Below are positions 9,747 to 16,375 of a stretch of 64,000 bases of DNA, one piece after another (within the stretch, counting starts at the first letter, position 1; the number at the start of each line of letters is the position of its first letter). The notes beneath the pieces are model-generated. The model did no database searches. It worked only from the letters and a program-made list of their open reading frames with translations, and had not been told where the DNA came from. Source of the DNA: Pseudosulfitobacter pseudonitzschiae (GTDB lineage: Bacteria; Pseudomonadota; Alphaproteobacteria; Rhodobacterales; Rhodobacteraceae); NCBI RefSeq assembly GCF_002222635.1, contig NZ_CP022415.1, positions 2,418,001-2,482,000 on the forward strand. The letters are read 5' to 3'. The translations under genes and the position numbers were made by a program.

Positions 9747-10754
9747 ATGGGCGAGACACGCAAAACCAAGGTTCTGATCATCGGATCGGGCCCTGCGGGC
9801 TATACCGCAGGCATCTATGCCAGCCGCGCCATGCTGGAGCCGATCCTTGTTCAGGGGATCGAACCGGGCGGTCAATTGACCACCACAACCGAGGTCGAAA
9901 ACTGGCCCGGCGACACCGAAGTGCAAGGCCCCGACCTGATGGTCCGTATGGAAGCACATGCTAAGGCGATGGGCTGCGAAGTCATCGGCGACATCATCTC
10001 GTCGGTCGACTTTTCGAAACGCCCGTTCGTGGCGCAATCCGACAGCGGCACGGTCTATATAGCGGATGCGATTATTCTTGCCACGGGTGCGCGCGCCAAA
10101 TGGCTGGGCATGGCATCGGAAGAGAAATTCAAAGGTTTCGGTGTTTCGGCCTGCGCCACCTGCGACGGCTTCTTTTACCGCGGGCAGGAAATCGTGGTGA
10201 TCGGTGGTGGTAACACCGCCGTGGAAGAGGCGCTGTTCCTGACCAACTTCGCCTCCAAGGTCACGCTGATCCACCGCCGCGACGAATTGCGCGCAGAAAT
10301 GATCCTGCAAGACCGCCTGTTGAAAAACCCCAAGATCGAGACCCTGTGGTTCCACCAGTTGGAAGAGGTCTATGGCACCGACAGCCCGCTGGGCGTCGAG
10401 GGCGTAAAGGTCAAGAACGTGAACACAGGCGAAATCACCGACATCCCCGCCAAAGGCGTTTTTGTCGCGATCGGTCACGCTCCGTCGAACGAACTGGTCA
10501 AGGACGTGCTGGAAACCCACATGGGCGGCTATGTCGTGACCAAATCCGACAGCACCGAAACCTCTGTTCCGGGTGTTTTTGCTGCCGGTGACCTGACCGA
10601 CCACAAATACCGTCAGGCCGTCACCTCGGCGGGTATGGGCTGCATGGCCGCCCTCGAGGCCGAACGCTGGCTGGCAGAAAACACCGATACCGACGTGGAA
10701 AAAGACACCTCCCTGCCGCTGGGCTATGGCACGGAAGTCAAAGAACGCGCCTGA
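9747..10754 (+). CDS. trxB: Thioredoxin-disulfide reductase
   Basis: A 335-residue flavoenzyme that reduces thioredoxin with NADPH. FAD-binding IIGSGPAGYTAGIYASRA is near the N terminus, the redox-active CATC in SACATCDGFFYRG lies in the centre, followed by the NADPH-binding VIGGGNTAVEEA and the C-terminal FAAGDLTDHKYRQA. The ATG at 9747 follows AAGGGG at a good distance; longer in-frame starts would add a non-homologous leader. Its last 31 bases overlap the 3' end of the convergent GSCFA gene. Confidence 0.97.
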   Translation: MGETRKTKVLIIGSGPAGYTAGIYASRAMLEPILVQGIEPGGQLTTTTEVENWPGDTEVQGPDLMVRMEAHAKAMGCEVIGDIISSVDFSKRPFVAQSDSGTVYIADAIILATGARAKWLGMASEEKFKGFGVSACATCDGFFYRGQEIVVIGGGNTAVEEALFLTNFASKVTLIHRRDELRAEMILQDRLLKNPKIETLWFHQLEEVYGTDSPLGVEGVKVKNVNTGEITDIPAKGVFVAIGHAPSNELVKDVLETHMGGYVVTKSDSTETSVPGVFAAGDLTDHKYRQAVTSAGMGCMAALEAERWLAENTDTDVEKDTSLPLGYGTEVKERA

Positions 10755-12631
10755 TCGCGGGCTGTGCCCCCGGTCTCACCGAACATCTGATCCAATGCGC
10801 CACGGTAGAACGCGGCACTTGCGTGGATGTCCATTGTGGCCGGGTGCGCTGCGTATGCCTCGCGGATAAATCCGCTTTCGGTGCGCTGGGCCGGATCGTG
10901 CTGGATCAGGCGCAGGCGGTCGTCTTGTTCGGGCATCATCGACAATGTCGCACGCAGCGCCGCCGCCTGATGATGGCGGTAGCTGCCGCTGTCGACAAAA
11001 GCATCGCCCAGACGCACCCGTGCGGCATGTTCCGGCAGATCGGGCGAGGCCACCCAGAACGCTCGCTTGAACATCGGATCCATTAATATCTGCAATGCCC
11101 AGGCCACTTTGGGCTGCAACGCGCCGCGATAAAAATCCTCAAGCGTAGCATCATCGCGGGCCACCAGCGGCAGTTGCGGCATTGCCTTATTGCCACCACG
11201 CAGGCCCGGCTGGCCCGTAGCCAGATCACCATGGGCGCGCAACACCTGATCACCGATGAAATTGCACCCCACCAGACACAAGGTCACCCGCCCACGGTGC
11301 ATGGACAGGTCGATATCCTGCATCCGGTTGCGATATTCGGGGCGGAACACGATTTGTTCATAGGTGCTGCGTCGCCGCAAACGCGGCCAGCGCCCGCCGC
11401 CCTGAATGGCCGTGGTCCAGTTGATCGGCACAAACCAATGCCCCGCCGGGTCCAGATCGGGGGCTGCGGCCATCACCGCATCCTTAAAGCTGCCCAGATG
11501 GCTGTTTCCGGCAAAAAGGATGGGATCTTGCAGCGTCGCCCCCATGTTCAGACGCGGCGCAGCTGGCGCTGACCGAGGCGGAACGTCGGGCGCAAAACCT
11601 TCTAGCAGCGCCTTTTTACGGTTGTCGCCAGCCAATGCGTTGTCGGCATGGGTCAAGTGCTTGTCGCCAGCGTCCCCCGCCCCGTGATGGTGAAAGAACA
11701 CGCCCATTACGGCCCGCACGCCCTCTTGGGTGACAGTGCGCAGGTTAGCATCATAGTAGCGCGAGCGGGCAGCGGGGTTGGTTATGATCTCATAGGATGG
11801 AAAGTAGTCGACAAAATCGTGCCGCGCGGCACATTCGCCCGCCACGGCGCGCAGCACCGATTTGGAATAGACCGTCGCGGGCAGCACGTGCCCGTCGGTC
11901 GCGGTTGCGCTCGGCGGCACCGGCGAAACCGTCAGCAAAACGCGAAACGCCCGCCCACCACGGATGTCGCGGATAAGGCCAAAGCTGTCTTCCAGCGCTG
12001 CCATCGTGTCGGCAAAGCCGAAATTGCGAAGGGCAAATGTTTGGGAATCAAACGCACCTCCCACGGCACCGGGCGGGGCGGGATAGACCGTGCCGAGTTG
12101 CCGGTGCTCCCAAGCCTCGGTCAGACCCAGCGTAAAGACAAACAGGTCAAGCCCCTCGATCATCTCGCGCACTGCTGCCAGATGCTGTGTCCGCGCCTCC
12201 AGCGTCTCGGCCGCCGTGTCAAATCCCTGTGCGGGAACGCGCGGGCGCAGGGCATCGATCACGCGGCCGCCACGCTTCCAGATGATCCCTTTGGACGGTT
12301 TGCCCCCTAGCACTTCGCGCAACAACTGCGCCAGTTGTGGTGCGGTGTAGATGTTGCCGTAGCGGGCCGAGAACTGGCCATACCCGCCCTGCTCGGCCTC
12401 TTGTGGTGTCAGGCCGTCGGGCGCTGGTTCAGCGTCGATCACATTAAACCCGTTTTGCACCAGAAACCCCGCCAAATTGCGGGCAAAGCAACTGCCCGCC
12501 GTGGCCACGCGCATATCACGCCGGATCGGCCATTTGGGCGTGTGAATATCGTAGAGTGCATCCGGATCACCGGCTTCGACGCCGGTTTTCCAGAAGCCAC
12601 GCGGCGCAGTCTTGTCATAGGGATTGGTCAT
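10724..12631 (-). CDS. GSCFA family protein with a second SGNH-like module
   Basis: A 635-residue protein with no signal peptide. The GSCFA motif is at residues 46-50 (ATAGSCFARNLAGF), and the N-terminal domain extends to about residue 320, with LDLFVFTLGLTEAW and LLTVSPVPPSATA typical of this SGNH-related family. A second segment, ILFAGNSHLGSF at 371-382, looks like another SGNH-hydrolase block I, so the protein may have two modules. Family members occur in capsule and glycan contexts; the substrate is unknown. Its 3' end overlaps trxB by 31 bp, and it is divergent from the cyclase gene. Confidence 0.85.
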   Translation of the reverse strand: MTNPYDKTAPRGFWKTGVEAGDPDALYDIHTPKWPIRRDMRVATAGSCFARNLAGFLVQNGFNVIDAEPAPDGLTPQEAEQGGYGQFSARYGNIYTAPQLAQLLREVLGGKPSKGIIWKRGGRVIDALRPRVPAQGFDTAAETLEARTQHLAAVREMIEGLDLFVFTLGLTEAWEHRQLGTVYPAPPGAVGGAFDSQTFALRNFGFADTMAALEDSFGLIRDIRGGRAFRVLLTVSPVPPSATATDGHVLPATVYSKSVLRAVAGECAARHDFVDYFPSYEIITNPAARSRYYDANLRTVTQEGVRAVMGVFFHHHGAGDAGDKHLTHADNALAGDNRKKALLEGFAPDVPPRSAPAAPRLNMGATLQDPILFAGNSHLGSFKDAVMAAAPDLDPAGHWFVPINWTTAIQGGGRWPRLRRRSTYEQIVFRPEYRNRMQDIDLSMHRGRVTLCLVGCNFIGDQVLRAHGDLATGQPGLRGGNKAMPQLPLVARDDATLEDFYRGALQPKVAWALQILMDPMFKRAFWVASPDLPEHAARVRLGDAFVDSGSYRHHQAAALRATLSMMPEQDDRLRLIQHDPAQRTESGFIREAYAAHPATMDIHASAAFYRGALDQMFGETGGTARDQARSLTSVP

Positions 12632-12763
12632 CCGGGCTCCACCTGTCGCGTTGGTCCGCTTTTCGCACAGGCCCTGTCACCTGTCGAGCAGGCAACTGTG
12701 CCATAGGCCCGTTGACGCCGCCCGTGCCAGCAGGCCATTCTGCCCAAAATCAAGGAGCAGTGG

Positions 12764-14428
12764 ATGTCAGAACTCTGGCGCGGCAACTGGGCGACCCGCG
12801 CCCGCATTGTCAGTGGGCTGGCACTTATGTTCTATGCCTTGCTGCATTTCCTGAATATCGGGCTTGGCCTATTCTCGTCCGAGTGGCTGGAGAAGGGGCA
12901 GGATCTGCGCCAGATCGTGACCCGAAATGCGGTGGGCGAAGTTCTGCTCTATGCAGCCCTTGCAGTGCACGCGGGTTTTGCGATGGCGCGTCTGATCGAA
13001 CGCCGCAGCTTGCGGATGCCCCGCGCCGAAGCCGTGCAATACGCCTTTGGTTTTGCCATTCCCCTGCTGCTGCTGAGGCATATCACATACACGCGCGTCG
13101 CCCACGAGGTCTATGCAGTGGATGACCAGATGGGATACCTGATGTTTCTGATCTGGGGCACCGTATCGGCGCTGTCCCAGACCGTGCTGTTGCTGATTGT
13201 ATGGATTCATGGCTGCATCGGCTTGCATTTGTGGTTGCGCGGGCGGGCGTGGTGGCGGCGCAACACGCACCTGTTGACGGGGCTGGCCGTGTTCGTGCCT
13301 GCCTTTGCGCTGGCCGGTTTCGTGGCCGAAAGCCGTCGTTTGCACGACGCCGCCTTGGACGAAGACACGCGTCTGGATATGTTGGATGCCTATAATTTCC
13401 CCGGTCCGCGCGAATTCCAAGGCCTGATCCAGATCGACACCGCACTTTATTGGGGGTTTGTCGTGGTGCTCGGCCTTGCCCTGACATTCCACTTTGCATT
13501 ACGCCTGAACGCACGCCGCACCAGCGTGCGCATCACCTATGCCGACGGGCCCACGATCACCGCACCACGCGGCCAAACGTTGCTGGAAATGTCGCGCGGG
13601 GCGAACGTGCCGCACACATCCCTGTGCGGAGGCAAGGGCCGCTGCACCACATGCCGCGTGATGGTCGAGGCAGGCGCCGAACACCTGCCGCCCCCATCGG
13701 ACGCCGAAGCGCGCAGCCTGAACGCTGTGGGTGCCCCGCCCGGCGCACGGCTGGCCTGTCAAATCAGGCCAGAGCAGCCAATGACAGTACGCCGGGTTTT
13801 CGCCAGTGGCGCTATGACCGCGCGCGGAGCCGCCAGTCAGGGGCAGGAACGTCCGCTGGCCATCCTGTTTCTGGATATGCGCGGCTTCACCGCGCGCACG
13901 GCGGGGCAACTGCCCTATGACGTGGTGTTTTTGCTCAACCGGTTCTTTGATGCGGTGGTGCCTGCGGTGACTGCGGCGGGCGGCAAGATCGACAAATATC
14001 TGGGCGACGGCTTTCTGGCGCTGTTCGAGACACCTGATACGGCCTCGTCGGCACAGGCGGGCCTGACCGCGGCTGCCGGAATCGGGCGGGCGCTGGATGC
14101 GTTCAACGCAGGGCTGGAAACCGAAGGCGCGCCGCCTGTGGGCATCGGAATTGGCCTGCATCTGGGCAATGTCGTGCTGGGTGAAATCGGCGCCGCCGGA
14201 CACGCCCCGCGCACGCTGATTGGTGATGCGGTCAATGCCGCCAGCCGTCTTGAGGCGCAAACCAAACCCATGAAAGTCGAATTGCTGATCAGCACCGCTG
14301 TTCTAGATGCGGCAGGTCTTGCACGCCCCGAGGGCTTGGTGTCGCTGACGCTGCGCGGTGTTTCGACGGAAATCGACGCTTTGCCGGTGCCCAAAGCCGC
14401 TGATGCGCCCCAAATGCCACAGTTGTGA
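12764..14428 (+). CDS. Membrane-bound class III adenylate/guanylate cyclase with a 2Fe-2S ferredoxin domain
   Basis: A 554-residue protein in three parts. Residues 1-250 form about six membrane helices with many histidines in or beside them (H28, H69, H106, H149, H155, H243), suggesting a heme b bundle like SdhC. Residues 253-345 are a plant-type 2Fe-2S domain with C288, C294, C297 and C332. Residues 362-535 are a class III cyclase: metal ligands D371 and D415 (LDMRGF, GDGFLALF), K411 for the purine, and N491/R495. All catalytic residues are present, with Lys favouring ATP. A redox-controlled cAMP synthase is inferred. It is monocistronic; an ATG with AAGGAG upstream sets the start. Confidence 0.93.
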   Translation: MSELWRGNWATRARIVSGLALMFYALLHFLNIGLGLFSSEWLEKGQDLRQIVTRNAVGEVLLYAALAVHAGFAMARLIERRSLRMPRAEAVQYAFGFAIPLLLLRHITYTRVAHEVYAVDDQMGYLMFLIWGTVSALSQTVLLLIVWIHGCIGLHLWLRGRAWWRRNTHLLTGLAVFVPAFALAGFVAESRRLHDAALDEDTRLDMLDAYNFPGPREFQGLIQIDTALYWGFVVVLGLALTFHFALRLNARRTSVRITYADGPTITAPRGQTLLEMSRGANVPHTSLCGGKGRCTTCRVMVEAGAEHLPPPSDAEARSLNAVGAPPGARLACQIRPEQPMTVRRVFASGAMTARGAASQGQERPLAILFLDMRGFTARTAGQLPYDVVFLLNRFFDAVVPAVTAAGGKIDKYLGDGFLALFETPDTASSAQAGLTAAAGIGRALDAFNAGLETEGAPPVGIGIGLHLGNVVLGEIGAAGHAPRTLIGDAVNAASRLEAQTKPMKVELLISTAVLDAAGLARPEGLVSLTLRGVSTEIDALPVPKAADAPQMPQL

Positions 14429-14656: not shown

Positions 14657-16375
14657 ATGTCGATGCCAAATAACCTCGCCCCTATTCCCGAACTTTTTGT
14701 TTCTTACGATTCAGCCCAAAAGCTCAAACTCGAAGCGGCCGATCTGATCAGCCACGACCTGACCCCACGCCAGATTTGCGATTTGGAACTGCTGATGAAC
14801 GGCGGGTTCAACCCGCTCAAAGGCTTTTTGTCCGAGGCAGATTACAACGGCGTTGTGGAAAACATGCGCCTTGCCGATGGCAGCCTGTGGCCAATGCCCA
14901 TCACGCTTGATGTCAGCGAAGGCTTTGCCGAAAAGCTGGAAATCGGACAGGACATTGCCCTGCGCGATCAGGAAGGCGTGATCCTGGCAACCATGACTGT
15001 CACCGACCGCTGGGAGCCGAACAAGGCGAACGAGGCGAAAAAAGTCTTTGGCGCCGACGACGACAAACATCCGGCAGTGAACTACCTGCACAATCAGGCG
15101 GGCAAGATCTATCTGGGCGGTCCGATCACCGGCATACAGCAGCCCGTTCACTACGATTTCCGCGCCCGCCGCGACACGCCCAACGAATTGCGCAGCTATT
15201 TCCGCAAGATGGGCTGGCGCAAAGTGGTGGCGTTCCAAACCCGCAACCCGCTGCACCGCGCCCATCAGGAACTGACGTTCCGCGCCGCGCGCGAAGCACA
15301 AGCCAACCTGCTGATCCACCCCGTCGTCGGGTTGACCAAACCGGGTGACGTCGATCACTTTACCCGCGTGCGCTGCTACGAGGCTGTGCTGGACAAATAT
15401 CCATCGGCCACCACCTCAATGTCGTTACTGAACCTTGCCATGCGTATGGCAGGCCCGCGCGAGGCCGTGTGGCACGGTCTGATCCGCAAAAACCACGGCT
15501 GCACCCACTTTATCGTCGGTCGCGACCACGCGGGCCCCGGTACAAATTCCAAGGGTGAAGATTTCTATGGCCCCTACGACGCTCAGGACTTGTTCCGCGA
15601 GCATCAAGAGGAAATGGGCATCGAAATGGTCGATTTCAAACACATGGTCTGGGTGCAGGAACGCGCCCAATACGAGGCCATCGACGAGATCGAAGACAAG
15701 GATAACATCACCATCCTGAACATCTCGGGCACCGAACTGCGCCGTCGTCTGGCCGAAGGTCTGGAAATCCCCGAGTGGTTCTCCTTCCCCGAAGTGGTCA
15801 AGGAATTGCGCCGCACCAAGCCCCCGCGCTCCAAGCAGGGGTTTACCGTGTTCTTCACCGGCTTCTCCGGTTCGGGCAAATCCACCATCGCCAACGCCCT
15901 GATGGTTAAGCTGATGGAAATGGGTGGCCGTCCCGTAACATTGCTGGACGGCGATCTGGTACGCAAGAACCTCAGCTCCGAACTGGGCTTTTCGAAAGAG
16001 CACCGCGACCTGAACATCCGTCGCATCGGCTATGTGGCGTCGGAAATCACCAAGAACGGCGGCATCGCCATTTGTGCGCCCATCGCGCCCTATGCCACAA
16101 CCCGTCGTGCCGTGCGCGAAGACATCGAATCTTTTGGTGCTTTTGTCGAAGTGCACGTCGCTACCTCGATCGAAGAATGCGAACGCCGCGACCGCAAGGG
16201 TCTGTATAAACTGGCACGCGAAGGCAAGATCAAGGAATTCACCGGCATTTCCGACCCCTATGATGTTCCGGAAGACCCGGAAATCCGCCTGCAAACCGAG
16301 AATATCGAGGTGGACAACTGTGCCCATCAGGTTCTGCTGAAACTGGAAAGCATGGGTCTGATCGCTGCCGAATAA
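14657..16375 (+). CDS. sat-cysC: Bifunctional sulfate adenylyltransferase / adenylylsulfate kinase
   Basis: A 572-residue fusion that converts sulfate to APS and then PAPS. The N-terminal ATP sulfurylase (about 1-385) holds QTRNPLHRAHQELTFRAA and GRDHAGPG; the C-terminal APS kinase (about 390-572) has the P-loop GFSGSGKST and the LDGDLVRKNL block. This single-chain form is usual in Rhodobacteraceae, replacing the CysDN system. It stands alone, preceded by 228 bp without a gene and followed by a perfect terminator. Which start among MSMPNN and MPNN is used is uncertain by two codons. Confidence 0.97.
   Translation: MSMPNNLAPIPELFVSYDSAQKLKLEAADLISHDLTPRQICDLELLMNGGFNPLKGFLSEADYNGVVENMRLADGSLWPMPITLDVSEGFAEKLEIGQDIALRDQEGVILATMTVTDRWEPNKANEAKKVFGADDDKHPAVNYLHNQAGKIYLGGPITGIQQPVHYDFRARRDTPNELRSYFRKMGWRKVVAFQTRNPLHRAHQELTFRAAREAQANLLIHPVVGLTKPGDVDHFTRVRCYEAVLDKYPSATTSMSLLNLAMRMAGPREAVWHGLIRKNHGCTHFIVGRDHAGPGTNSKGEDFYGPYDAQDLFREHQEEMGIEMVDFKHMVWVQERAQYEAIDEIEDKDNITILNISGTELRRRLAEGLEIPEWFSFPEVVKELRRTKPPRSKQGFTVFFTGFSGSGKSTIANALMVKLMEMGGRPVTLLDGDLVRKNLSSELGFSKEHRDLNIRRIGYVASEITKNGGIAICAPIAPYATTRRAVREDIESFGAFVEVHVATSIEECERRDRKGLYKLAREGKIKEFTGISDPYDVPEDPEIRLQTENIEVDNCAHQVLLKLESMGLIAAE

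Follow-up and report, generated by a model that had tools for sequence, protein, structure and literature searches.

The window analysed here, a stretch of 64,000 nucleotides from Pseudosulfitobacter pseudonitzschiae (contig NZ_CP022415.1), harbors an intact cyaC-type gene flanked by genes for a thioredoxin reductase, a GSCFA-family protein and a fused ATP sulfurylase and APS kinase (Table 1). The encoded protein shares 84–85% identity with its counterparts in four Sulfitobacter/Pseudosulfitobacter relatives. Comparison with the same four relatives gave a dN/dS of approximately 0.11 for the gene as a whole and 0.04–0.08 for the cyclase domain alone and, as judged from these alignments, the gene is under purifying selection. 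Since dN/dS is about 0.1 and none of the ligand histidines and cysteines listed in Table 1, four of each, varies among homologues, the reading frame is not a product of chance. A scan for promoters and terminators around the gene revealed no signal exceeding the shuffled background.

Table 1. Features of the cyaC-type locus and of related loci in which the cyclase is missing. Positions are those of the window unless another locus is given.
Feature	Position	Strand	Remarks
trxB, thioredoxin reductase	9747..10754	+	Conserved neighbour, not shown to belong to the system
GSCFA-family gene	10724-12631	-	Flanked by trxB and cyaC; its end overlaps that of trxB, tail-to-tail, by ~30 bases
Shine-Dalgarno sequence AAGGAG	12752..12757	+	6 nt 5' of the ATG; read from sequence
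cyaC-type gene, 554 aa	12764..14428	+	ORF intact
Six-helix membrane domain, residues 9-252	12788..13519	+	Probable diheme-B succinate dehydrogenase/fumarate reductase-like anchor; AlphaFold2, structure comparison, weak SdhC/FrdC profile match
H28, predicted ligand of distal (periplasm-side) heme b	12845..12847	+	Invariant; membrane side from topology
H69, predicted ligand of proximal (cytoplasm-side) heme b	12968..12970	+	Invariant, 121/121
H106, predicted ligand of distal heme b	13079..13081	+	Invariant, 121/121
H149, predicted ligand of proximal heme b	13208..13210	+	Invariant, 121/121
[2Fe-2S] ferredoxin domain, residues 254-345	13523..13798	+	Ligands C288, C294, C297, C332 (C-x5-C-x2-C-x34-C); Pfam Fer2; cysteines invariant, 121/121
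Short linker joining the cluster domain to the cyclase, residues 346-360	13799..13843	+	Low confidence in model
Class III nucleotide cyclase domain, residues 361-545	13844..14398	+	D371, K411, D415, T484, N491, R495; Pfam; sequence and fold matches in the PDB
sat/cysC, fused ATP sulfurylase and APS kinase	14657..16375	+	Conserved neighbour, not shown to belong to the system
Cyclase-less module and MscS-type gene	L088:5698-9023		Genome G154
Cyclase-less module and MscS-type gene	L087:5629-9086		Genome G521
Cyclase-less module and MscS-type gene	L148:2986-6074		Genome G060

A sequence-only reading of this DNA described six helices, a class III cyclase and, between them, a [2Fe-2S] domain, all within one gene. 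AlphaFold2 models, built from seven sequences, and Pfam searches confirmed this arrangement, and all fifteen residues that had been named (H28, H69, H106, H149, H155, H243, C288, C294, C297, C332, D371, K411, D415, N491 and R495) occupy those positions in the protein. The modelled membrane helices span residues 9–36, 56–79, 87–116, 133–158, 162–198 and 215–251, with short helices in between. Pfam Fer2 matched residues 264–337 (6e-10), and the NCBIfam models nqrF and fdx_isc matched the same domain below their cut-offs (43 against a cut-off of 295 for the nqrF-type score); by its sequence it is an adrenodoxin/NqrF-type [2Fe-2S] domain. Pfam Guanylate_cyc matched residues 364–511 (6e-11), and the catalytic set of class III enzymes is complete. 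Among PDB sequences the guanylate cyclase Cya2 and a phytochrome-cyclase fusion come closest, so the substrate specificity is not readable from similarity alone.

The membrane histidines listed in the earlier reading were not all equally conserved. H28, H69, H106 and H149 did not vary across 121 full-length homologues (one truncated row of the alignment lacks the position of H28), whereas H155 was present in 88 and H243 in just 11 of these, which makes the latter two unlikely as heme ligands. In a separate alignment of the membrane part, comprising 65 sequences, the only invariant residues were G18, H28, H69, H106, W147, H149 and G153. The predicted heme-ligand set is H28, H69, H106 and H149. 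Because both the basic N terminus and the cyclase are expected inside, the periplasmic halves of their helices would contain H28 and H106, and the cytoplasmic halves H69 and H149. These positions suggest one distal and one proximal heme, with the two histidines on each side of the membrane presumably forming a pair.

Searches for relatives of the membrane domain pointed to the anchors of succinate dehydrogenase and fumarate reductase. A profile of this part, run against PDB sequences with E values up to 10, returned three matches, SdhC of 6lum (E 0.05), FrdC of Desulfovibrio gigas (5xmj, E 0.49) and one designed protein; SdhC and FrdC were the only natural chains, and neither is significant alone. 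A fold search with the complete model was taken up by cyclase domains, so a separate model was built for the membrane part, of moderate confidence (pLDDT 72, seven sequences). The top six rows of a VIA-align comparison with this model were the fumarate reductase anchors of W. succinogenes and D. gigas and the succinate dehydrogenase anchors of Chloroflexus, at Z 10.0–12.7, the highest score being slightly below the value recommended as safe for bundles of helices (13); cytochrome b561 came next in the list (Z 8.4). Foldseek alone gave no significant match to the membrane part, fumarate reductase appearing at rank 28 (E 0.86). The window protein had no Pfam match in this domain, and Sdh_cyt was matched by 7 of 65 relatives, at best with E 0.0025. 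The profile and structure matches are each weak alone, and jointly they agree with the diheme assignment published for a homologue.

This homologue is CyaC (SMc01818) of the nitrogen-fixing Sinorhizobium meliloti, a protein purified and studied in earlier work (Wissig et al. 2019 Mol Microbiol 112:16-28, doi 10.1111/mmi.14251, as cited in PMC10463352). There it is described as a diheme-B, [2Fe-2S] adenylate cyclase under quinone redox control, and the legend of Figure 6 in Klein et al. 2023 (PMC10463352) has CyaC activated by oxidised quinone, with the [2Fe-2S] cluster drawn. The diheme and quinone finding is repeated in PMC9552081 and PMC13259868. A tblastn search of plasmid records yielded an S. 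meliloti record annotated cyaC, in whose translation K410, T484, N491 and R495 coincide exactly with the residues that Klein et al. mutated (PMC10463352); the fetched sequence is therefore the characterised CyaC itself or the strain's equivalent of it. The window protein is 38% identical to it over 517 residues (window residues 12–520), with the domains in identical order. Judged by its sequence, which agrees with the family in every defining feature, the window gene appears to encode a CyaC-family adenylate cyclase. The kind of enzyme is already explained by the published homologue, to which the window protein adds a member.

We consider it highly probable that the window protein is a quinone sensor of the CyaC type, in which a diheme anchor acts through a [2Fe-2S] domain on cAMP synthesis. 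The six helices would form a bundle akin to the diheme anchors of succinate dehydrogenase and fumarate reductase and hold two b hemes, H28 and H106 binding the one on the periplasmic side and H69 and H149 the one on the cytoplasmic side. These hemes would exchange electrons with ubiquinone or ubiquinol. Their redox state would then be passed to the homodimeric class III cyclase, probably via the cytoplasmic [2Fe-2S] domain, so that an oxidised quinone pool leads to more cAMP; we infer the role of the cluster in this coupling. The integrity of the gene, its domain order, the invariant ligands, the homology to CyaC and the resemblance in fold were all seen in the present analysis. Hemes, cluster, quinone control and activation on oxidation are reported for S. 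meliloti CyaC in PMC10463352, and by analogy the window protein would be expected to behave likewise in heme and cluster content, activity and redox response. The suggestion, made from the sequence, that electrons from the quinone pool or from heme could report respiratory redox state as cAMP is thus supported by work on the homologue, and for the window protein it probably holds by analogy. The accompanying remark that no signal was established for such cyclases has to be withdrawn, as the quinone redox state has been published for CyaC (PMC10463352).

The CyaC family is common: of the 385 alphaproteobacterial genomes sampled, 112 contain it. With its cyclase it was found in 24 of 198 sampled genera of Rhodobacteraceae, and it also occurs in some other proteobacteria and on many Rhizobium plasmids. 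In the phylogenetic tree the window protein falls among the alphaproteobacterial members, within a Rhodobacteraceae clade, the deep branching being unresolved. Within the Rhodobacteraceae cyaC is usually located between trxB and sat/cysC, and the intervening GSCFA gene on the opposite strand is also present in one of the four close relatives. A functional trxB-cyaC-sat/cysC operon was considered and is not supported. Both neighbours are adjacent in genomes devoid of cyaC as well, with gaps of 286 bp (G331), 166 bp (G154), 225 bp (G482) and 190 bp (G433), and the position of cyaC therefore reflects descent rather than function. At this locus cyaC looks like an optional extra, either inserted or repeatedly lost.

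Three other explanations were weighed. The resemblance of the Fer2 domain to the N terminus of NqrF and to ISC ferredoxins, and the presence nearby of trxB, which encodes a pyridine nucleotide reductase, could be taken to mean that the ferredoxin domain is the primary input. Its electrons would come from a soluble donor in the cytoplasm, such as a flavoprotein reductase that is perhaps linked to trxB, and the hemes would pass them to quinone in a kind of electron valve with cAMP as read-out. However, the adjacency of trxB and sat/cysC in genomes lacking cyaC deprives the neighbourhood of value as functional evidence, and no dedicated reductase was seen travelling with cyaC in the Rhodobacteraceae loci. 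We regard such a valve as very improbable. Only slightly less improbable is a structural or vestigial role of hemes and cluster, the cyclase answering instead to something else that the membrane anchor binds, be it a ligand, a lipid or a partner protein. Across 121 divergent homologues none of the eight metal ligands varies, and quinone redox control has been measured for the S. meliloti homologue according to PMC10463352; both observations speak against this proposal, even though the membrane anchors of other class III cyclases do serve as receptors (PMC4821796) and the text consulted does not settle what the cluster does in CyaC.

The least probable of the three, and in our opinion a far-fetched one, is that the enzyme is a guanylate cyclase or inactive, as might be suspected from its nearest PDB sequences. 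The metal-binding D371 and D415, the adenine-type K411 with T484, and N491 and R495 are all present and equal to those in S. meliloti CyaC.

Under the favoured reading of a quinone-controlled adenylate cyclase, the cAMP formed has to be received. Two class III cyclase domains are detectable in the genome that contains the window. The second (L009:1189-1992, minus strand, near G000:C1:428503-428682) is short, carries a C-terminal hydrophobic stretch and reads NTSGDG where the window protein has KYLGDG, and it is apparently without the substrate lysine. Nine cNMP-binding domains were found in the genome, two of them fused to ABC-exporter-like proteins and one to an apparent sodium/proton antiporter. 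The two exporter-like proteins (L164:1140-4079 and L165:1146-4307) are approximately 1,000 aa long with the nucleotide-binding domain at the C terminus, which in L164 contains GELGL...PRA, close to the phosphate-binding cassette for cAMP; in the antiporter-like protein (L166:3679-6303) the domain is likewise C terminal. Using as reference the S. meliloti Clr, identified adjoining cyaD1, no Clr orthologue was found in the genome, the best matches being 22–27% identical with E 1e-9 or weaker. Furthermore, inspection by eye of all its CRP/FNR-type cNMP domains did not reveal the FGEMAL...RS cassette of Clr. As there is no adjacent CycR gene and Clr homologues are weak, the pathway downstream of cAMP must differ from that in S. 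meliloti.

Three relatives carry the module without the cyclase, as a membrane part and a ferredoxin part in which none of the eight ligands is missing. In all three, the start of the next gene on the same strand abuts or overlaps the stop of the cyclase-less module, the product of this gene being a mechanosensitive channel of the MscS type (MS_channel_2nd, E 4e-16, 7e-17 and 6e-12 in L088, L087 and L148, respectively). The three copies form one clade (SH-aLRT 97). Such pairs are rare, being present in two of the 385 genomes of the class sample and two of the 198 of the family sample, with one genome shared. No other output domain was seen on the diheme-[2Fe-2S] sensor; the sampled matches lacking a cyclase in the same frame were MscS-paired copies, ends of contigs or what look like frameshifts. 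A search of the literature returned no report of a redox module paired with an MscS channel. The module and its MscS-type neighbour possibly constitute a redox-gated channel pair, and these copies are more novel than the cyclase finding itself. A broader and rather unlikely speculation takes the diheme and [2Fe-2S] unit for a portable redox switch. In the lineage of the window's organism it would address non-Clr receptors through cAMP, possibly the cNMP domains on the ABC exporters of this genome, and in sister lineages the cyclase-less unit would gate an MscS-type channel in trans according to the quinone redox state.

Compared with known systems, the window protein stands closest to S. meliloti CyaC in domain order, length (554 and 557 aa), the four heme-ligand histidines, the four cluster cysteines and the catalytic residues, and it adds marine Rhodobacteraceae to the range of a redox-to-cAMP sensor that has been studied biochemically. 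The two differ in their surroundings. Pyrimidine catabolism genes and the gene of the TetR-type CycR, part of the CyaC-CycR-Clr cascade, lie near S. meliloti cyaC, whereas trxB, GSCFA and sat/cysC genes lie near the window gene. In S. meliloti Ak57 (L149:7971-13411), two IS4-family transposase genes are located between cyaC and a rutR/TetR gene that is probably the CycR counterpart, and the published cyaC-cycR neighbourhood appears to be interrupted in this strain. With two detectable class III cyclases, against 28 reported for S. meliloti, the window's organism is a simpler host in which the role of quinone-controlled cAMP may be easier to reveal. The protein shares a membrane helix followed by a C-x5-C-x2-C ferredoxin domain with the N-terminal half of NqrF, but has no FAD/NAD module. 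With the diheme anchors, namely W. succinogenes FrdC, D. gigas FrdC and Chloroflexus SdhC, which gave the best structure matches, it appears to share a helix bundle with four histidines as ligands; in the alignment, both D. gigas FrdC and the 6lum SdhC have histidines opposite H28 and H69. In contrast to these anchors, it has no catalytic flavoprotein partner, and its sixth helix leads into the [2Fe-2S] domain and the cyclase.
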